A stretch of DNA of 64,000 bases, taken from assembly GCA_002256425.1 (NCBI GenBank), contig NKIZ01000001.1, positions 62,001 to 126,000 on the forward strand, read 5' to 3'. A program made the translations under genes and the position numbers. Shown here piece after piece: positions 2,891 to 28,463 of this stretch (positions are counted from its first letter, which is position 1; every line of letters starts with the position of its first letter). The notes below the pieces were generated by a model, which was not told the origin of the DNA, did no database searches, and saw nothing but the letters and a program-made list of their open reading frames with translations. The stretch comes from Alphaproteobacteria bacterium PA2. GTDB taxonomy: Bacteria > Pseudomonadota > Alphaproteobacteria > Caulobacterales > Caulobacteraceae.

Positions 2891-4057
2891 TTGAATTTCG
2901 AACTCTCTGAAGAGCACCGCATGCTCAAGGACCTGGTGCAGAAGTTCGTCCGCGACGAGCTCATGCCCCTGGAAACCGCCGTCATGCAGAGGGAGGCCAC
3001 CGGCCAGGGCATCTATATCAACGCCGAAGAGCGGGCCAAGGTGGACGAAGTCTCGCAGAAACTCGGCCTCTGGGGTCTGGATGCGCCCGAGGATGTGGGC
3101 GGCGCCGACCTGCCCCAGGTGGCCCTGATCGCGGTCAATGAGGCCATGGGCTCCACCGTGACGCCCTATACCCTGCCGCCGGACTCCCCCAATCTGCGCA
3201 TGCTCATGGCCACGGTGAACGAGCGCCAGAGGGAGGCCTATCTGGCCCCCTATGTGGCGGGCAAGACCATCAGCGCCATCGGCATTTCCGAGCCCGGCGC
3301 CGGGGCCGACCCGGCGGGCATGATGACCCGCGCCGTCCGCGACGGCGACGACTGGGTGATCAATGGCCGGAAGATCTGGACCAGCCGGGCCGCCGAAGCA
3401 GACTTCACCATCCTCATGGCGGTGACCGACAAGGAAAAAGGCTCCCGGGGCGGGATCTCGGCCTTCCTGGTGGACGGCGACACCCCGGGCTTCAACGTCC
3501 TGCGGCGCATTCCGATGATCGGCGGGGCCTTCACCTATGAGGTCGCCCTGGAAGACTGCCGGGTGCCGGACTGGAAGCTGCTGGGGGTCGAAGGTCAGGG
3601 CTTTGCGCCCATGCAGATCCGCCTGGGCACCCGCCGCCTGCAGATGGCCAGCTGGTGTATTGGTCTGGCCCAGAGGGCCCTGGACATGATGTGCGAGTAC
3701 GCGCCGCAAAGGGTCACCTTTGGCCAGCCCCTGTCCAACCGTCAGGCGGTCCAGTGGTGGGCCGCCGACGCCGCCACCAAGATCCACGCCGCCCGGCTTA
3801 TGGCCTATGACGTGGCCTGGAAACTGGACCAGGGCCGCGACGTCCGCCAGGAGATCTCCATGGTCAAGGTCTTCGCCACGGAAATGGCCTGGGAGACCAT
3901 CGATCACGCCATGCAGGCCTTCGGAGCCATGGGCATGACCAAGGAAATGCCGCTGCAGCTCATGGCCGCCAGCGTCCGCAATATGAGAATCTATGACGGG
4001 CCTTCTGAAGTCCACCGCATGGTGGTGGCCCGCAACCTTATGGGAACCAGCCGATGA
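2891..4057 (+). CDS. Acyl-CoA dehydrogenase
   Basis: A 388-residue FAD-dependent acyl-CoA dehydrogenase, introducing the alpha-beta double bond in acyl-CoA. The N-terminal helical domain begins FELSEEHRMLKDLVQKF, the FAD/substrate region contains AIGISEPGAGADPAGM, and the C-terminal domain has RVTFGQPLSNRQAVQWW and the family end motif YDGPSEVHRMVVARNL. The start is TTG at 2891, with AGGAAAG just upstream and no ATG in a better place. Its stop overlaps the next gene as ATGA, so the dehydrogenase and hydratase are an operon. Substrate chain length or branching is not predictable. Confidence 0.92.
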   Translation: MNFELSEEHRMLKDLVQKFVRDELMPLETAVMQREATGQGIYINAEERAKVDEVSQKLGLWGLDAPEDVGGADLPQVALIAVNEAMGSTVTPYTLPPDSPNLRMLMATVNERQREAYLAPYVAGKTISAIGISEPGAGADPAGMMTRAVRDGDDWVINGRKIWTSRAAEADFTILMAVTDKEKGSRGGISAFLVDGDTPGFNVLRRIPMIGGAFTYEVALEDCRVPDWKLLGVEGQGFAPMQIRLGTRRLQMASWCIGLAQRALDMMCEYAPQRVTFGQPLSNRQAVQWWAADAATKIHAARLMAYDVAWKLDQGRDVRQEISMVKVFATEMAWETIDHAMQAFGAMGMTKEMPLQLMAASVRNMRIYDGPSEVHRMVVARNLMGTSR

Positions 4058-4836
4058 GCAAGACCGCCACCCAGGAAATCACCATTTCCAAATCCGGCCA
4101 TGTGGCCACCATCACCATCGACCGGCCGCCGAACAACCATGTCTCGGTGGAGCTGATGCGCGACCTGGCCGACATACTGGAAAACCTCGACGGCGACTCC
4201 GAAGTCCGCGCCGTGGTCCTGGCCTCAGCCGGCAAGGCCTTCTGCGCCGGGGCCGATCTGGTCTCATCGGACGGCATAGCCAATAACGGCATGGGCGGGA
4301 TCAACGCCCTCTATGACCAGGCCGTGCGCCTGTTCTCCATCGAGACTCCCATTGTCGCCGCTGTCCAGGGCGCCGCCGTGGGCGCAGGCCTGGGGCTGGC
4401 CCTTGTCGCCGACTTCCGCGTCGCCGCCCCCGAGGCCCGCTTCGCCGCCAACTTCGTCAAGCTGGGCTTCCATCCGGGCTTTGGCCTGACCCACACCCTG
4501 CCCCGCCTGATCGGCGAGCAGAGGGCGGCCCTCATGTTCCTCACCGGCCGCCGGGTGAAGGCAGAAGAGGGCCTCGCCTGGGGTCTGGTGGACGAGGTGG
4601 TCCCCCTGCACAAGCTGCTGGAGGCCGCCCAGGCCCTGGCCGCCGAGATCGCCGAAAACGCCCCCCTGGCCGTGGTCGCCACCCGCAAGACCATCCGCGG
4701 CCATCTGGCCGCCGCCGTACGCGAACAGACCAATCACGAGCACGCCCAGCAGACCATCCTCCGCGCCACGGACGACTTCGCCGAAGGTGTGAGGTCGGTT
4801 CAGGAACGCCGGCCCGGGAACTTCACGGGGCGGTAA
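4054..4836 (+). CDS. Enoyl-CoA hydratase/isomerase family protein
   Basis: A 260-residue crotonase-fold enzyme, expected to hydrate the enoyl-CoA made by the preceding dehydrogenase. It shows the crotonase signatures VATITIDRPPNNHVS, the oxyanion segments AGKAFCAGADL and AVQGAAVGAGLGLALVADFRVAA, and a catalytic-region FVKLGFHPGFGLTHTLPRLIG in which the usual acidic positions are only partly conserved. Isomerase or hydrolase activity is therefore possible. The start overlaps the dehydrogenase stop by 4 bases. Confidence 0.88.
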   Translation: MSKTATQEITISKSGHVATITIDRPPNNHVSVELMRDLADILENLDGDSEVRAVVLASAGKAFCAGADLVSSDGIANNGMGGINALYDQAVRLFSIETPIVAAVQGAAVGAGLGLALVADFRVAAPEARFAANFVKLGFHPGFGLTHTLPRLIGEQRAALMFLTGRRVKAEEGLAWGLVDEVVPLHKLLEAAQALAAEIAENAPLAVVATRKTIRGHLAAAVREQTNHEHAQQTILRATDDFAEGVRSVQERRPGNFTGR

Positions 4837-18976: not shown

Positions 18977-20499
18977 CCGAACACCCCGTGCAGCCACCAG
19001 CGGGCCGGCTCGCCCTCGGTATAGAGCCCTTCCCGGAAGACCCAGAACCGGGCGCCGTCCTGGTCCTCCACCCGGTAATAGTCCCGGACCTGATCGGTGC
19101 GGACCGCCTCGATGGGGCCCCGCCACCATTCGGCGCCGATCCGCTCCGGGCCCTCGGCCAGGCGGACCCGGTGGGTGCGCCGCCGCCACTGGAACTGCCG
19201 GGGGGGATCATCCGGGGTCAGGGCCAGGACCCCCTCCAGCCGCTCGGGCTTGCGGAACAGGCGCAGGGGGCGGGGCTGCTCGGGGTCCCAGGCCGGAGCG
19301 TCGGGTGCAGCCACACCCAATGCCGGCGCAGGCGCAGACGACAGTTCCGGCACATGGCTGGCCACGGGGACATTGCGCCAGACCCTGTCCGGACCCAGCC
19401 GGTTGACCAGCCGGTCGATCAGGGGCGCCAGGCTCTGGTCGGGGTCCAGCAGGCTGTCCAGCCGCCGCTGGCGACCGGCCAGGGGCTCCACATCCTCGGC
19501 GACCAGGGTGACCACCTCAATGCCGAACCCCGGATCGACGGTCTCGAGCTTGGGGGTGAACAGCTTGGCGATGCGGGCGGGATCGCGGCCCGCCAGGGCC
19601 AGGCCGACGGTCAGGGGTCGCGCCCTGCCGTCCACCCCGTGAAAGGCCAGATGGAACCGCCTGCCCCCCTGCCCCTCGGTGTCCAGCCGGGCGCAGAGGA
19701 CGGCGGCCACATCGAAGGTGACACGGGCCATGTCATCAGGCGCACTGATCGGTTCGGCGAAGGCCAGGCGAGCGAACCAGGGATTGGGTGGCCGCCGCCA
19801 GGTCAGGGCCTCCGCCCCCCGGCCCAGGGCCTGATCCAGACGGGTCAGGGTCTGCGCCCCGAACCGCCGGGCCAGGGGCGCCCGGGGAATGTCGATCAGC
19901 TGGCCGATCCGCCGCAGGCCCAGACGCTCGATCTGGGTGGCGGTTTCCGGCTCGAGTTGCAGGGCGGCGGGGGGCAGGGGGCTGAGCAGGGCGGCCTGTC
20001 CCCCGGGCGGGGCGATGATTTCCGGCTCCCGGCCATAATGGGCCAGGGCCCAGGCCGCGCCCGGGGTGTCGGCCAGGGCCAGACGGACGTTCAGACCATT
20101 TCCCGCCAGCCGGGTCCGCAGGTCGGCGAGCAGCCGCCCCTCCCCGCCCCACAGATGGGCCACCCCGGTGACGTCCAGATAGAGACCATCCGGCGCCGCC
20201 GGAGAGACGGCGGGGGAAAACCGCACGCACCAGTCGCTCAACTCCGTCAGGGCCTGGGCGTCGGCCTCCGGCTCGGCGGGCGCCGTTTCCAGATCGGGGC
20301 ACAGGGCCATGGCGTCCGTGGCCTTCTGGCCCAGGCGCAGACCCGCCGCCGCCGCGACCTGATCGACGGCCGTCAGCACCCGGACCCCGCGCACGGAGTC
20401 TATGAGCACAAAAGGCTTAGCCTGCGAGTCGCAGGGGTGTCGTCGGCGCCAGTTGTCGATCGCCCAGCGGGGCGACCAGGCGCAGAGGATGCGTCCCAT
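18973..20499 (-). CDS. imuB: ImuB, Y-family polymerase-like mutasome subunit
   Basis: A 508-residue Y-family-like protein. The start ATG 20499 has GAGG six bases upstream; a GTG at 20511 in the same frame would overlap that [23 protein letters not shown] resembles the UmuC/DinB fingers start, but the catalytic DE pair of active Y-family enzymes is replaced (DGLYLDVTG), as is known for ImuB. It is thought to link DnaE2 to the beta clamp. It overlaps the 3' end of imuA by 83 bases in another frame and dnaE2 by 4, giving tight coupling. Confidence 0.95.
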
Positions 20500-21202
20500 G
20501 CTTGGCCTCACAGGTATATGCGTCGACGGCCTCCATCAGCCAGGCGCCCGGACGTCCGGCCCGGCACCGCTCCAGATGAACCTCCCAGCGCGGCGCCCCC
20601 AGACCCAGCATGCCGGGCTCGGGCTGGCTGGGAGCCGAGGACACCCGCCAGCGGGTGGCGGCCGCCGTGCCGGTGGACTGACGATCCACCCCGCCATAGG
20701 GGCGACGGCGCAGGATGAAGCCCGTGGCGCCCCTCGTCTCACAGGCCAGCTGCAGCCGCCGGCCGGCGGTCAGGTCCACCGCCTCCACCTCGGCGAAGAC
20801 GGCGCTGACTCCCTCGGTGGCCAAGGCGTCCTCGGCCACGGCCAGGGCCTCGGCCTCGTCCCGGGCGCAGACTTCGATCAGCTTTTCGGCGGGAAAACCC
20901 AGCCCCGCCAGACCCGGGGCGAACAGGTCGTCCCGGCGCAGGATCCACACCGCCTCCCCGCGGCGGGCCAGGGGCGCGGCCATGAGGGCGGCGAAGGCGG
21001 CCGGCGCAGCGCAGGTCTCGGCCTCCATGCCGCCGCTGACGAATTCATGCCATTGGCCCAGCGGCAGGCCGCCCTTGATGAAGGCCTCATCCAGACGCGC
21101 GTCGCCAAAGGGCAGGACCCCGGACACACCCCGCCCGCCCGCCTCCAGGGCGGCGATCTTCGCCTTGAGGGCGAGCAGACCCGCCTCGCGAAAACCGGAC
21201 AT
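20417..21202 (-). CDS. imuA: ImuA, RecA-like mutasome subunit
   Basis: A 261-residue RecA/SulA-like protein (ImuA), required for damage-induced mutagenesis with ImuB and DnaE2. The fold-typical GVLPFGDARLDEAFIKGGLPLGQWHEF is present, with no canonical Walker A. ATG 21202 is the first codon, only about 17 bases after a LexA box, so the operon is almost certainly SOS-controlled. The C-terminal ~28 codons overlap the start of imuB. It is the first gene of imuA-imuB-dnaE2. Confidence 0.93.
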   Translation of the reverse strand: MSGFREAGLLALKAKIAALEAGGRGVSGVLPFGDARLDEAFIKGGLPLGQWHEFVSGGMEAETCAAPAAFAALMAAPLARRGEAVWILRRDDLFAPGLAGLGFPAEKLIEVCARDEAEALAVAEDALATEGVSAVFAEVEAVDLTAGRRLQLACETRGATGFILRRRPYGGVDRQSTGTAAATRWRVSSAPSQPEPGMLGLGAPRWEVHLERCRAGRPGAWLMEAVDAYTCEAKHGTHPLRLVAPLGDRQLAPTTPLRLAG

Positions 21203-21218
21203 GTCTTTGTTCCTTATT

Positions 21219-21233
21219 GTTCCGCTTTTGTTC
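21219..21233 (-). promoter_or_regulatory. LexA (SOS) box of imuA-imuB-dnaE2
   Basis: GTTC-N7-GTTC on the plus strand (GAAC-N7-GAAC reading toward imuA) is the known LexA site of Alphaproteobacteria. It lies about 17 bases upstream of the imuA ATG, overlapping the expected promoter. Another GTTC precedes it with a 6-base spacer (21209-21212), and a GAAC follows at 21242-21245, making an inverted pair GTTC-N8-GAAC with the last GTTC. Confidence 0.88.
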
Positions 21234-21375
21234 TAGTACGAGAACAAAAGGAGTCAATGGGGCGGGGATCAGGGGGATGAAATCTGACACCTGGCGCCCG
21301 AGCGGCCACAGACCGGCAGGAACATGGGTCGCCAATTCGCCATGAGCGGAAATTCCGAACGGCAGGGATGGATGA

Positions 21376-23277
21376 TCAAACGTTGCTCGGTGGCCGTCGG
21401 ATGGCTGCTCCTGACTCAAAGGCGACGCCGGGAACGTCCCTATCGGGCGGTGACTGTGTCTGAGCACTGGCATCACCTCCCAGCGACGCTGGCCACGCCG
21501 CAACTTCCCTAGCGTAGTAGTCAGCGACGTGACGGCTGCGTTCCGCAGCATGGGCCAAGTGGCTGGCCAACTCCTTATTCGCTCGCTGCGACCAGGCACG
21601 GCCCTCTTGTTGCAGTCGGCGCAGGACAATCCCCGGCGTATCTTGGGCGCTTGCTCGGAGCTTCTGTGGGTAAACCCCAGAGACGACGTACGGTCGGCGC
21701 GCCGCATCGCCATACACTTCATTTTGCGCGGCCCACACGGCGTGAGCCAGCGGCTTGCCATAGTGCTTTCGGAAGACCCGTGTTGCGACCTCGCTTGCCT
21801 CTGCGTCCAGCACCGGGACGATAGTGCCGACGTAGGCACGCGCGCCCGCAAACATAAAGCGGCCGGAAAGCTCGCGCCATGACACGCAGGCGTTGTTGAA
21901 GATGATGGGCGTGCCATTCGCTGCTATCGATTGCGGGGCCACGATGTAGTTGTGGTCACTCATTGCCATGGCGGCTGAGCCGACGACGCGCGGGATCTGA
22001 ACCTTCGATGTCGACTCCAAACTCCCGCGAAGGTCGATGAAATCCTTGATCGCGGTCCCGACGTATAGTGATTCCTTCTTGCGGGGGTCGTTCAAGTCGA
22101 CGCCATCCAGGTACCGAAAATAGATCAGTTCTGTGAGCGCAAATCGGTCGTCATCGTTGTCGCTCGGTTGTCCGATGCCGACCGCGATGTCCACAACGAG
22201 GTGACGTGCGATTCCCTCGGCGTCGTCGAAATCGTAGTTGAACCGATATCCCGATGCATCGCCGCAATGGGTTGAGAAGATTATCAGGTCGTAAGGGAAG
22301 TGGTCGATGTCCTCCGAAACGGTTGTGACGTCCGCGCTGCGCCCCATGAGACCGCGCACCAGAAGGCGGCGTTCAGCTAGAGCCTCCGCGGTAGTTCTGA
22401 TCTCTGCCGCCTGCGTCGTGCCTGGATCAACAACGATCGCAACATTTACGCCCGGCGTTTCATTCTGTTCTGCAGCAAAGCCGTTCGCAATCGCAAGGCC
22501 AAGGTCCGGATAGGTGAACAGATGCGTCGATGGCCGCTCAGGATGGGCGAGACCGAGCGGTAGCTTCCGACTGATCCAGGTCACTGCGCCGCTAGGCGGA
22601 AGCACGACGGGCCCGATGCGTGCACGGAGTTCGTCAAGAACCTCCTCAAAAACCTGCGTCTGAGACTGTTCCCTTTGGTCGAGGATGCCGTAGAGGCGTT
22701 CCTGCAGGTATTCGCAGATCTCGTCGGGGATGGGCTTGATGATCTGCAACCCAGCCCCGAGGGAGAACGCATAGTTGGCGGCGATCACCTCGGAAAGAGC
22801 GTCTCCGGCCTCACAAACCACGAGATGATCACTTATGGGTGCGATGTAAGTCGTCGTGGGTGCCGCATCATCGAACCGGATCCAACTTCGATCTCTGAGC
22901 GCAGTCAGTAAGCCCACGCCGATGCAGTCGCGGCCCCAAGTGATTGGCGCCTTGCTCGCGATGTCTGCCGGGAGCAAAGCCTCGGCTTCCACGAAGGTTG
23001 AAACCACAGTGGCAAAACCTTGCGGGAGCGCGTGGCGAATCCGATCAATCGCATCATCGGACAACCCGCCGAGCAGCACTCGGCGGGCTTTCGTTCGGGC
23101 GAGCACGTTGTTGCGGCGAATTACTTCGGCAGCGTGATCTGGACGGGTTAGCCGGGGGCCGTCCAGCACCGTGAAATATGTCCCCCGTCGCGCAGCTGAA
23201 CAGGACAACAGCGCCGCCAGATGCGGGTCGTCTGAAATCAGAGCCGTTCGCTGAACAATGGGTACACGAATCGCCAT
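21376..23277 (-). CDS. CHAT/caspase-like putative cysteine protease in an accessory insert
   Basis: A 633-residue protein of unknown function. Its C-terminal half resembles the CHAT (clan CD caspase-like) peptidase fold: a buried strand ending in DLIIFSTHCG gives His337, and PIIFNNACVSW gives Cys464. These are followed by SGRFMFAGARAYVGTIVPVLDAEA and AVWAAQNEVYG, which match the CHAT pattern of a GA-x-V strand, a D-x-E-A turn and a helix. The first ~280 residues match nothing I recognise; there is no signal peptide or TM. The tail (about 600-633) is Pro/Ser-rich and likely disordered. Base composition is visibly less GC-rich than its neighbours. It is divergent from the HEPN-like gene, 80 bases apart. 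A role in defence or regulated proteolysis is inference. Confidence 0.7.
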   Translation of the reverse strand: MAIRVPIVQRTALISDDPHLAALLSCSAARRGTYFTVLDGPRLTRPDHAAEVIRRNNVLARTKARRVLLGGLSDDAIDRIRHALPQGFATVVSTFVEAEALLPADIASKAPITWGRDCIGVGLLTALRDRSWIRFDDAAPTTTYIAPISDHLVVCEAGDALSEVIAANYAFSLGAGLQIIKPIPDEICEYLQERLYGILDQREQSQTQVFEEVLDELRARIGPVVLPPSGAVTWISRKLPLGLAHPERPSTHLFTYPDLGLAIANGFAAEQNETPGVNVAIVVDPGTTQAAEIRTTAEALAERRLLVRGLMGRSADVTTVSEDIDHFPYDLIIFSTHCGDASGYRFNYDFDDAEGIARHLVVDIAVGIGQPSDNDDDRFALTELIYFRYLDGVDLNDPRKKESLYVGTAIKDFIDLRGSLESTSKVQIPRVVGSAAMAMSDHNYIVAPQSIAANGTPIIFNNACVSWRELSGRFMFAGARAYVGTIVPVLDAEASEVATRVFRKHYGKPLAHAVWAAQNEVYGDAARRPYVVSGVYPQKLRASAQDTPGIVLRRLQQEGRAWSQRANKELASHLAHAAERSRHVADYYAREVAAWPASLGGDASAQTQSPPDRDVPGVAFESGAAIRRPPSNV

Positions 23278-23357
23278 CGGTCGAAGCTAAAGTATTTCGA
23301 CGTCGACGCCCAAGCCACACGCGCAGGTAGGTGGCGAGATCTTTAGCAGAGGACACC

Positions 23358-24125
23358 GTGCCTTACAGCCGCGAAAAGATAGCTGAGATGCATAACGCGC
23401 TCGACGAGTGGCGCGGTCGGGAGAATGCGCTAACCCGTTGGCTGCTCGGCTATCCGTTCGCCGACGAAGTCGCGCGAGAGATGATGCGACATGGAATGAG
23501 CCGAAGAATTGCCGACCTAAAGCACAGTTTGGATCGCATCTTCGAGATTCTGCCACCGGACGCAGAGGCACCGTCACGGAGGGATCTCTACGACGCGACC
23601 GCATTCCTGCAGGCTTTCGTCATCAACACGTTCGGAGCCATCGACAACCTCGCCTGGGTTTGGGCGCGCGAAGCCAATGTACGCGATAAGCGAGATCGTC
23701 CGCTCGTGCGAAGTCTGATCGGGTTGACCCCGGACCACCAGATACTTCGCGGCAGTCTCTCCGAGAAGACACAGGCTTACCTCCAAAGCCTGGACCCTTG
23801 GTTCGAGTATCAGGAGGAATACAGGCACGCGCTGGCTCACCGGATCCCGCTCTACATTCCCCCGAAGACGTTCAACGATGCCGACGCGGCCGAACACAAA
23901 CGGCTGGAAGATGAGATGCTGGCGGAAGGGTGGAGTTGGGAGCGCTGGCACGAGGTTGAGGCGGCCCAGCGCAGGCTGGGAGTCTTTGAGCCCGTCATGA
24001 TGCACTCATACGGGGAGCGAGCTCGGCCGATGTATTTCCATGCCCAGACGCTCATCGATTTCGCGACCGTCATTGAGATAGCGGAGCATGTTGCCGGCGA
24101 CTTGGACATGTTAGGTGACAAGTGA
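23358..24125 (+). CDS. HEPN-like hypothetical protein, partner of CHAT-like gene
   Basis: A 255-residue, mostly helical protein of unknown function. I prefer GTG 23358 because AGAGGA stands 4 bases before it; an in-frame GTG at 23331 would add 9 residues but has no well-placed RBS. Residues 151-163 contain EEYRHALAHRIPL, an R-x4-H motif of the kind that forms the ribonuclease site in HEPN proteins (Arg156, His161 from this start). It lies between a helix that ends in NTFGAIDNLAWVW and a final helix (AQTLIDFATVIEIAEHV). No TM or signal peptide is present. Composition is as for the CHAT-like gene. The HEPN assignment rests on this motif and helix layout alone. Confidence 0.6.
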   Translation: MPYSREKIAEMHNALDEWRGRENALTRWLLGYPFADEVAREMMRHGMSRRIADLKHSLDRIFEILPPDAEAPSRRDLYDATAFLQAFVINTFGAIDNLAWVWAREANVRDKRDRPLVRSLIGLTPDHQILRGSLSEKTQAYLQSLDPWFEYQEEYRHALAHRIPLYIPPKTFNDADAAEHKRLEDEMLAEGWSWERWHEVEAAQRRLGVFEPVMMHSYGERARPMYFHAQTLIDFATVIEIAEHVAGDLDMLGDK

Positions 24126-24193
24126 GCTCGGCGGACTACTGCGGTGTCAGTGCGGCTGCGGACCGCCGGCACTCAAGTCCCAGATCTTAACCC

Positions 24194-24580
24194 CTACTGC
24201 GTCCCCGCCACCAACCGCCCCAGCCTCTTCGGCGCCATGGCCACATAGCTCTGCAGCATCCAGGCCTTGAGGGTGTCCAGTTCGGCGAAGACGTCATCGC
24301 CAGGCCCGAAGCAGGCCATGATCCAGTTATTGCGCTTGTACCAGCCGGGCCTCACCCGGACGAACCAGAGGTCTTCGACCATCTCAGCGGAGATGGGCAG
24401 TTTCACGGTCAGGGTGAAGTCGTCATCCGTTTCGGCCTTGTCGCCGAAGACGGCGAAGCCCTTGCCGGCCACCCGCATGTAGCGGGTCACGCCAAATCCC
24501 GGCGCCAGGTCGGTCTCGGGAAGGCTGAGGCCATAGGCGGTCAGTTCCGCCTCAGCCCGCTGGGCAGGGGTCTGGGACAT
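24194..24580 (-). CDS. MmcQ/YjbR family protein
   Basis: A 128-residue protein of the MmcQ/YjbR (CyaY-like fold) family. It shows the family course: an early LSLPETDLAPGFGVTRYMRVAGKGFAVFGD, then FTLTVKLP and WFVRVRPGWYKRNNWI, and a final helix with SYVAMAPKRLGRLV. The family is often called DNA-binding, but the function is not established. It marks the return to high GC after the accessory insert. It is convergent with the HEPN-like gene, and an alphaproteobacterial palindromic repeat separates its start from serA. Confidence 0.8.
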   Translation of the reverse strand: MSQTPAQRAEAELTAYGLSLPETDLAPGFGVTRYMRVAGKGFAVFGDKAETDDDFTLTVKLPISAEMVEDLWFVRVRPGWYKRNNWIMACFGPGDDVFAELDTLKAWMLQSYVAMAPKRLGRLVAGTQ

Positions 24581-24630
24581 GGCCTGATATTACCATGCCC
24601 CAGACTGCCCGAGGAGGTCTTTGTTTTGGC

Positions 24631-24675
24631 TCGCATTTTATCCGAAAACCGCTTCACACTTTTCGGAATGCGATC
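24631..24675. repeat. Alphaproteobacterial palindromic intergenic repeat (~45 bp)
   Basis: An imperfect hairpin: CGCATT...CCGAAAA (from 24632) pairs with TTTTCGG..AATGCG (to 24672) across CCGCTTCACAC. I recognise this sequence type as an abundant intergenic palindrome in Caulobacterales and Rhizobiales. It abuts the serA stop codon (24678) and may act as a transcription terminator or mRNA-stabilising structure for serC-serA. It is followed on the minus strand by an AT-rich tract. Confidence 0.7.
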
Positions 24676-27512: not shown

Positions 27513-27606
27513 AGCGATGTCTCCCATCCTTACAGATGAGCAGCGCCCCGTTGGGGGGGCGTGGCCCGACGCGGAGAAACGCCCGTTTCGCCTTAAGGGC
27601 AAGTGA
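27513..27606 (-). ncRNA. Candidate serC leader RNA motif in the 5' UTR
   Basis: The sequence directly upstream of serC reads, on the minus strand, GGCGAAACGGGCGTTTC, then CTCCGCGTCGGGCCACGCCC, then a CGCCCC/GGGGCG stem (27544-27561) and the RBS GGATGGGAG. A short GAAAC/GTTTC hairpin (27576-27589) and the position match what I remember of the serC RNA motif of Alphaproteobacteria, a small cis-regulatory structure whose ligand is unknown. Exact boundaries are approximate. Confidence 0.6.
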
Positions 27607-27648
27607 AAGTTTTGGAGATTGTCGAAAATTGAGGCGTCGGGGGCCCGT

Positions 27649-28068
27649 TCAGGCGGCGCCTTCAGCGGTCCTGGAGCCGCGGATATAACCGATGACTCCC
27701 GCGGCCAAACTCATGCAAACAAACAGGAAAATGAGATTGTTTGCTCGGGCGAAAGTCAGGTCGTGCTCCTTGGCCATGACGAAATAGTAGGCGTTCAGGC
27801 CGAACTGCGCCCCATAGAGCAGCATGACCACACCAAGCCATTTGCTGGTGAATCGGATGGCCAAACCGACGAAAACCAGGGCCGTAACCCCGTCAAATGT
27901 CAGCTTGGCCACCGGATGGAGCATGTGAGTCACGGGAAGACCGAGTAGCGTATTGGCGAGGACCAAAATCGCACCGGCACGCTCTGCCGACCCGCCCTTC
28001 CACAGTGACCACCCGCAAATAGCGAAAACCAAAATCAGCAAAATGCGGGCTATCAGCAGGTCAGACAT
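27649..28068 (-). CDS. Small four-TM membrane protein, unknown function
   Basis: A 139-residue integral membrane protein with four hydrophobic segments, at about residues 4-20, 30-48, 57-88 and 105-128. There is a short basic C-terminal tail ([12 protein letters not shown]). No family motif was recognised and no partner can be inferred. Its GC content is slightly lower than its neighbours. It is followed downstream by the serC leader on the same strand, so it could also supply read-through transcription into serC. Confidence 0.6.
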
Positions 28069-28130
28069 GGGTCAGAAACTTCCAAACACCAAGTCTCTCC
28101 TAATCTGAGTTTTGAGACCTGTCTAAGGTC

Positions 28131-28463
28131 TTAGCCGACCTCGCTGGTCTTTCCACGCGCCTGCATGAAGAGCGGCGGAGGCTTCATGATTTCCATCTTC
28201 GTCCGGATGCCGAGACGCAGCTGGGCTTCAGCCAACTCGTTATGCACGCCGACCATGGCGGTGCGGGCGGCGCTGAGGGCCGAGATGGCTTCCATCAGCT
28301 TGACCTGGACGTCATCGGCGAAGACCACGGAGGTATTGACCTCCTTACGGGCCTTCAGGATTTCGGCCATGAACTCACTGGCTTCCACCAGGGCCTGGTC
28401 GACGGAGGCTTCGGTCGCGAACAGCTTTGCGGCGACCTGCTTGGCCACAAACACCTTTTCCAT
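28131..28463 (-). CDS. Conserved-looking small helical protein, CtrA box upstream
   Basis: A 110-residue soluble protein of unknown function, predicted almost wholly helical (ASVDQALVEASEFMAEILKARKEV, then VQVKLMEAISALSAARTAMVGVHNELAEAQLRLG) and so possibly coiled-coil, with a disordered basic tail. RBS AGGAG lies 5 bases before ATG 28463. A perfect CtrA-type site lies 23-37 bases upstream of the start, suggesting cell-cycle control. It is divergent from the hybrid kinase gene. No enzymatic motif is present. Confidence 0.65.
   Translation of the reverse strand: MEKVFVAKQVAAKLFATEASVDQALVEASEFMAEILKARKEVNTSVVFADDVQVKLMEAISALSAARTAMVGVHNELAEAQLRLGIRTKMEIMKPPPLFMQARGKTSEVG

Follow-up and report, generated by a model that had tools for sequence, protein, structure and literature searches.

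Borvo, an anti-phage system, consists of a single gene. CHAT-family proteases occur among the listed anti-phage systems in Borvo and type III-E CRISPR, and HEPN proteins in several systems, according to PMC10952713; in Csx29 the His/Cys pair is H615/C658 (PMC10028731). HEPN proteins are defined in PMC3710099 by an Rx4-6H motif in which the next residue is N, D or H, and the canu-type nucleases, as described in PMC12799240, combine an MBL fold with gating insertions and are recurrently paired with a protease. Here we describe two genes of the CHAT and HEPN kinds in a stretch of 64 kb from contig NKIZ01000001.1 of Alphaproteobacteria bacterium PA2 (hereafter the window, to which all plain coordinates refer). 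Gene A (21376..23277, minus strand; ATG start) encodes a divergent CHAT-family (caspase-like) predicted cysteine protease of 633 aa with the candidate catalytic residues H337 and C464, and gene B (23358..24125, plus strand; GTG start) encodes an all-helical HEPN-type predicted ribonuclease (RNase) of 255 aa with the motif R156-x4-H161; an alternative start of gene B at 23331 would give 264 aa. An earlier note on this DNA had reported two head-to-head open reading frames (ORFs) of these lengths and the four residues; the ORF calls agree with the former, and the residues were found at the claimed positions.

We consider it probable (about 0.62) that A and B are two independently mobile single-gene defence or stress effectors that share one insertion hotspot and are neighbours by chance. 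Gene A resembles Borvo and Csx29/TPR-CHAT of type III-E CRISPR in being a CHAT-family protease and, in the case of Borvo, in standing alone, but differs in a much longer His-Cys distance (127 residues) than that of the reference CHAT domains measured and in the lack of any TPR match in Pfam (E ≤ 10). Gene A has no match to the PADLOC models at E ≤ 10 and its three relatives have none at E ≤ 0.01, although the presence of a Borvo model in PADLOC was not checked. Gene B is similar to the HepT, Cthe_2314-like, Apea-like and Swt1-like HEPN RNases in its Rx4H motif with D, H or N, its all-helical model and its sub-threshold Pfam matches; it differs from them in that no family member exceeds a Pfam HEPN cut-off where bit scores are known, in additional invariant residues and in having no MNT partner in the window. 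The locus is like canu and other nuclease-protease pairs in having a gene for a caspase-like protease next to a nuclease-like one, but B is HEPN-type, its model contains no disordered region and it has no recurrent A partner. A CHAT plus HEPN pair is not described in the available parts of PMC3710099, PMC12799240, PMC13236601, PMC10952713, PMC7159879 and PMC10028731, which cover the literature partially, and under similarly partial coverage no paper on an imuA/imuB insertion hotspot was found.

Gene A and the CHAT family

The earlier note had called gene A CHAT-like from its motifs, and this assignment now has a broader basis. Against the Pfam CHAT family A scores 17.9 bits, below the cut-off of 24, and its relatives at loci L206 and L155 score 25.8 (above the cut-off) and 17.4 (below it), respectively. 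With a reference profile of 30 loci, taken from a CHAT family search of 172 genomes of the class (37 of which matched), A reaches 15.9 bits and L206 21.9 bits; the score of A lies above every control, shuffled sequences giving at most 6.4 bits (4000 made, 2289 reported) and 1012 other ORFs of at least 300 aa at most 5.4. The hhalign score for the comparison with CHAT is 33.7, and none of 200 column shuffles exceeds 27.2. H337 aligns with the CHAT histidine (tHg in the profile), and both H337 and C464 are invariant in all four members of the A family. C464 precedes ELSGRFMFAGAR, an F-x-AGAR stretch, the catalytic cysteine being assigned by position. Conservation within the family is good over the N-terminal ~280 residues, which are uncharacterised and for which no significant match was found. 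Gene A is thus a divergent CHAT-superfamily protein and, judged from its sequence, a predicted protease.

Several observations weigh against this assignment. The relatives at L155 and L205 score weakly with the CHAT profile (6.3 and 6.2 bits), and for L205 Pfam gives nothing at E ≤ 0.01. The probability stated by hhalign is just 18%, and C464 is not placed on the CHAT cysteine. The His-Cys distance in A compares with 45-53 residues in the 19 of the 30 reference CHAT domains that have measurable motifs, and its distance from the cysteine to AGA is 13 residues, as opposed to 20-32 in 17 of these 19, the other two being pattern misses. The AlphaFold2 model of A (two-sequence input) has a mean predicted local distance difference test (pLDDT) score of 36.7, so that its caspase-like fold is unproved.

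The distribution of the A family is patchy and mobile, its four places being the window, an island and two viral contigs. In overlapping genome samples (60 relatives, 101 of the genus, 75 of other genera, 249 of the family, 385 of the class and 398 of the phylum), matches at E ≤ 0.001 comprised A itself, a relative in genome G1021 (locus L155; same family, other genus) with 49% identity over 595 aligned positions, and a partial match in genome G730 (29%, A residues 532-624, E 1.3e-4). Looser limits added short partial matches in 12 other genomes of the genus (E 0.02-0.55) and 18 further genomes of the phylum (E 0.006-0.1), which were taken as chance, and the search of plasmids and phages gave nothing credible. 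Single-sequence pattern scans recovered no relative in genome contigs or viral contigs; an alignment of two A sequences recovered two relatives in viral contigs and one of four sequences the same two contigs only. Genome contigs were scanned with the single-sequence pattern only, so the rarity of A there is not established.

The stretch around the G1021 relative holds a resolvase, a ROS/MucR regulator and a NACHT protein, forming a mobile-type island, together with a coupling-type and a relaxase-type protein, which we name from their sequences. The 67.9-kb viral contig with the relative at L205 (47% identity) has a CHAP-domain gene, 2.4 kb downstream of which the relative lies; on the other side of the relative a GAF protein is encoded at a distance of 0.8 kb, IetS at 1.8 kb and IetA at 4.1 kb, the defence-type genes ietS and ietA plus the GAF-domain gene occupying L205:7545-11728. 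The relative at L206 (43%) is on a 10.5-kb viral contig, and its neighbours encode an HSDR_N protein, a virion morphogenesis protein and a Mu-type portal/F protein. On the same contig, L206:17-2368 is a single ORF that matches the Mu portal, Mu F-like and PBECR2 nuclease families.

Gene B and its genomic company

Likewise, the HEPN-like label that the earlier note had given to gene B rests on more than the spotting of a motif. Every one of the 72 aligned B homologues carries R156 and H161 and has D, H or N at position 157; G46, R49, R50, W148 and P164 are further invariant residues of the family. The model of B is all-helical, with pLDDT of at least 90 for 250 of the 255 residues and below 70 for none. 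Gene B of the window itself has no match to the Pfam HEPN families at E ≤ 10. When the 72 homologues were compared with 33 HEPN families, HEPN_Cthe2314 matched one (1.3e-5), HEPN_Apea three (best 0.0088), and HEPN_Swt1 and HepT-like one each; these matches are sub-threshold in the two families for which bit scores are known (best 25.7, cut-off 27.1). The comparison of B and 71 relatives with PADLOC gave no match for the window's B at E ≤ 10 and scattered weak matches for the relatives (best 0.0046), and scattered weak matches were all that PHROGs gave for members of the family. Two structural results speak against the assignment: HepT chains occur among the structural alignments of B, yet with Z scores no better than those of unrelated helical proteins, and Foldseek searches against PDB and viral models returned nothing at E ≤ 0.001. 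On the strength of its conserved motif, B is HEPN-type and a predicted RNase.

By record titles, the B family is found on plasmids, viral contigs and chromosomes of several phyla. Among 88 loci, the neighbour clusters most often present within 6 kb of B are resolvases (10 loci), LigD (6) and a cluster that we take to be LysR-type regulators (5), and no partner gene recurs in more than 10. These counts exclude the output of a simple gene caller, which picked antisense ORFs at some of the B loci (L030, for example). Four loci (L059, L064, L074 and L097) have in common an HTH gene ~0.7 kb from B and a second gene directly upstream of the B homologue, which in three of them ends 7 bp before it; the second gene probably encodes a membrane protein, and the arrangement is possibly a small operon of one sub-lineage. 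On a Sinorhizobium fredii plasmid (L007:4561-5789) an Abi_C protein gene and a small uncharacterised gene directly precede the B homologue; relatives of the small gene lie near B in L004 and L065 as well, and L007 and L065 share the gene before B. Another genome of the genus contains a distant relative of B (30%) at L003:689-1576, 0.3 kb from a resolvase-type gene.

The earlier note had proposed a search for enrichment near defence genes. We inspected eight of the 18 plasmid matches to B and compared seven of them with stretches about half a plasmid away, L010 being omitted from both sides and the control stretch for NZ_CP023073.1 being shifted off the record end. Toxin or defence labels were present near B in 6 of 7 cases (PIN/Fic in L004, HipA in L005, RES/PIN in L006, Abi in L007, VapC in L008 and RES-Xre in L011, with L009 not counted) and in 3 of 7 controls (RES-Xre in L198, VbhA-Fic in L201 and HEPN in L204, a Vsr-type endonuclease in L203 being left uncounted). 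These proportions are not distinguishable, which speaks against the effector reading, and enrichment around B was rejected.

The pairing of A and B was examined in 96 of 99 loci, all 96 with B homologues or fragments, three stretches of the window's own genome being set aside and several of the others overlapping. None of these 96 B-bearing stretches contains an A relative at E ≤ 1 or by a four-member A profile, and no other match to the CHAT profile above 5.4 bits was found among 1013 ORFs of at least 300 aa in the window and the fetched loci, CHAT and A-homologue loci excluded. Conversely, no B was found by tblastn at E ≤ 1 in L155, L205 and L206, and no match to a B profile better than E 0.3 in L155, L207 and L208, the last two being wider cuts of the L205 and L206 contigs. 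A and B were seen side by side in the window's genome only. The earlier note had inferred that they could form one module and had itself proposed the search for the pair as neighbours as a means of refutation; that search found no co-occurrence in other genomes, and a recurrent A plus B module was rejected for want of it in the 96 B-bearing stretches and the three loci with A relatives. On the other side, the sample of A is small: with just three other A loci, a rare pairing elsewhere could have been missed.

The insert and its site in related genomes

A lower GC content and deviant codon choice between imuA and the YjbR-like gene, which had been pointed out in the earlier note, are both evident. 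In 500-base windows GC is 0.57-0.63 across the A-B block; the flank with imuA and imuB (18.5-21.25 kb) has 0.69-0.75 and the flank with serA (24.5-27 kb) 0.64-0.67. Low GC is not confined to the block, as around 27.75-28.25 kb it drops to 0.56. Scored for codon adaptation to the rest of the window's genes, A has 0.428 and B 0.468 (0.455 for its longer form), the two lowest scores among called ORFs of at least 150 aa, the other 48 of which have a mean of 0.656 (sd 0.079, minimum 0.490). Third-position GC is 0.67 in A and 0.71 in B.

A search for the YjbR-like protein in 101 genomes of the genus matched 23 including the window's own, and stretches were taken from 11 of the 22 others. Three of them (L161, L162 and L164) have an empty site, in which the yjbR stop is followed by 21-22 bases, CCATTGACTCC, a GAAC-N7-GAAC box and imuA; imuB is also present in L162 and L164, and the L161 contig stops within imuA. 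In L165, ~1.9 kb with other genes (for a BNR/Sortilin-type protein and others) separates yjbR from imuA, and in L157 the imuA-imuB-dnaE2 block is inverted relative to yjbR(-serA), and a DUF2442 gene separates dnaE2 from yjbR. L156, the closest relative as judged by its flanking genes (91-97% protein identity), carries an Xre/MbcA antitoxin gene and a RES gene directly after yjbR at the same site (L156:3685-4604), and its contig stops before any imuA. The RES matches are split over two frames, so the gene is possibly broken or the assembly faulty; a 98-bp part of the yjbR 3' end is duplicated, 92% identical, on either side of the Xre-RES insert (3444-3541 and 4655-4752). No imuA was found in the fetched stretches of the remaining five relatives. 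The space adjoining the 3' end of the YjbR-like gene therefore varies among relatives, and since they show empty and differently filled sites, the insert of the window sits at a variable site. The earlier note had suggested this empty-site comparison and viewed the block as an accessory insert; the view of it as an acquired accessory segment is upheld.

The insert extends over approximately 2.9 kb (21261..24162), as delimited by alignment with relatives. On the imuA promoter side it is bordered by GGAGTCAATGG at 21250-21260, common to the three empty-site relatives, and on the yjbR side by 24163-24302, past the yjbR stop, which aligns with the closest relative. Its flanking genes are imuA (20417..21202, minus strand), named as in the earlier note and kept in order with imuB in relatives, and the YjbR-like gene (24194..24580, minus strand), with a Pfam YjbR score of 26.9 bits, below the cut-off of 30.1. 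No pair of direct repeats of at least 14 nt links the two borders. Transposon-type borders were rejected: there are five short direct-repeat families within 21180-24650, none linking both borders, and no tRNA, ARAGORN finding none in the window. Between the starts of A and B lie 80 bp (23278..23357) with a short inverted repeat, GTCGAA-N10-TTCGAC (23280-23301), which we note as a candidate only, claiming no significance for it. The GAAC-N7-GAAC site in front of imuA (21219..21233, minus strand), which we take to be the alphaproteobacterial SOS box, lies outside the insert and has the same arrangement with imuA in the three empty-site relatives; with 1.4 such sites expected by chance in the window, the case for it rests on this conserved position. 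Control of A or B by this box is ruled out by its position downstream of A, and it drives neither gene. Elsewhere in the window, a second low-GC stretch (0.56; ~27600-28250) between a serC-type gene and a 765-aa ORF has no called ORF of at least 150 aa, and a serC leader RNA (RF00517, 54.5 bits; 27519-27571, minus strand) is the sole Rfam match at the gathering threshold.

Competing explanations and meaning

If A and B act singly, A would be a solo CHAT-family protease whose C-terminal CHAT domain is kept in check by the N-terminal region; H337 and C464 would be set free to act by a trigger, probably a stress signal or a phage product, and activated A would then cut host or phage proteins and growth would stop. 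Gene B would be a solo HEPN RNase that, by analogy with other HEPN proteins, dimerises, joins two R156-x4-H161 motifs and cuts RNA once activated. We infer such a defence role, including catalysis, triggers, growth arrest and an anti-phage benefit, from the membership of both proteins in the CHAT and HEPN superfamilies and from the location of their relatives. That A and B instead form one protease-plus-RNase module, the CHAT protease activating or restraining the HEPN RNase (compare Hachiman, AVAST and canu), appears improbable: the head-to-head layout with 80 bp between the starts, the deviant codon style common to both and the protease-activated nucleases known from bacterial immunity (PMC12799240) favour it, but the two genes do not co-occur elsewhere in the loci examined, B homologues in 88 loci lack a general partner, and the B model has no residue with pLDDT below 70 and hence no disordered gating loop like that described in the same source. 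It is to our mind similarly improbable that a phage-type CHAT protease and a plasmid-type HEPN RNase have been newly assembled in this lineage as a working caspase-plus-RNase immune unit, which would have a common trigger or a mutual response and be transcribed divergently from the shared 80-bp region.

Gene B might also be the toxin of a toxin-antitoxin pair with A or another nearby gene as its antitoxin, since HepT-type HEPN RNases act as toxins that a protein encoded next to them neutralises (PMC7641770). One plasmid match (H18) touches a gene labelled as an AbiEii-type nucleotidyltransferase, and the HTH gene and second gene of L059, L064, L074 and L097, the latter 7 bp before B in three, would fit as well. 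We nevertheless regard this as very improbable, because in the window B lies between A and the YjbR-like gene, with no adjacent MNT antitoxin gene, and the commonest neighbours in the 88 loci are resolvases, LigD and the presumed LysR-type regulators. Less easily dismissed, although still unlikely, is the explanation that A and B have no immune role and serve the maintenance of a plasmid or prophage, or are passengers in decay. In its favour, members of both families are carried by plasmids, viral contigs or resolvase-bearing loci, and PADLOC offers no match for A or B (E ≤ 10) or the A relatives (E ≤ 0.01) and weak matches only for the 71 relatives of B; against decay stand the full-length frames, in which the motif residues do not vary even between distant homologues, and the presence of ietS and ietA at 1.8 and 4.1 kb from the L205 relative of A also counts against this explanation.

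No family model specific to A was found in Pfam, PADLOC or NCBIfam, and none specific to B in those or PHROGs. Both appear to be families of known superfamilies that lack their own model, and not a new kind of system. That a protease gene adjoins a nuclease-type gene does not by itself point to a nuclease-protease system. The variable site next to yjbR merits mining, and the present locus exposes two compact, little-known families, a CHAT protease with an unusual His-Cys distance and a solo HEPN family, whose members A and B can be tested as single-gene candidates for effectors of phage defence or growth arrest.
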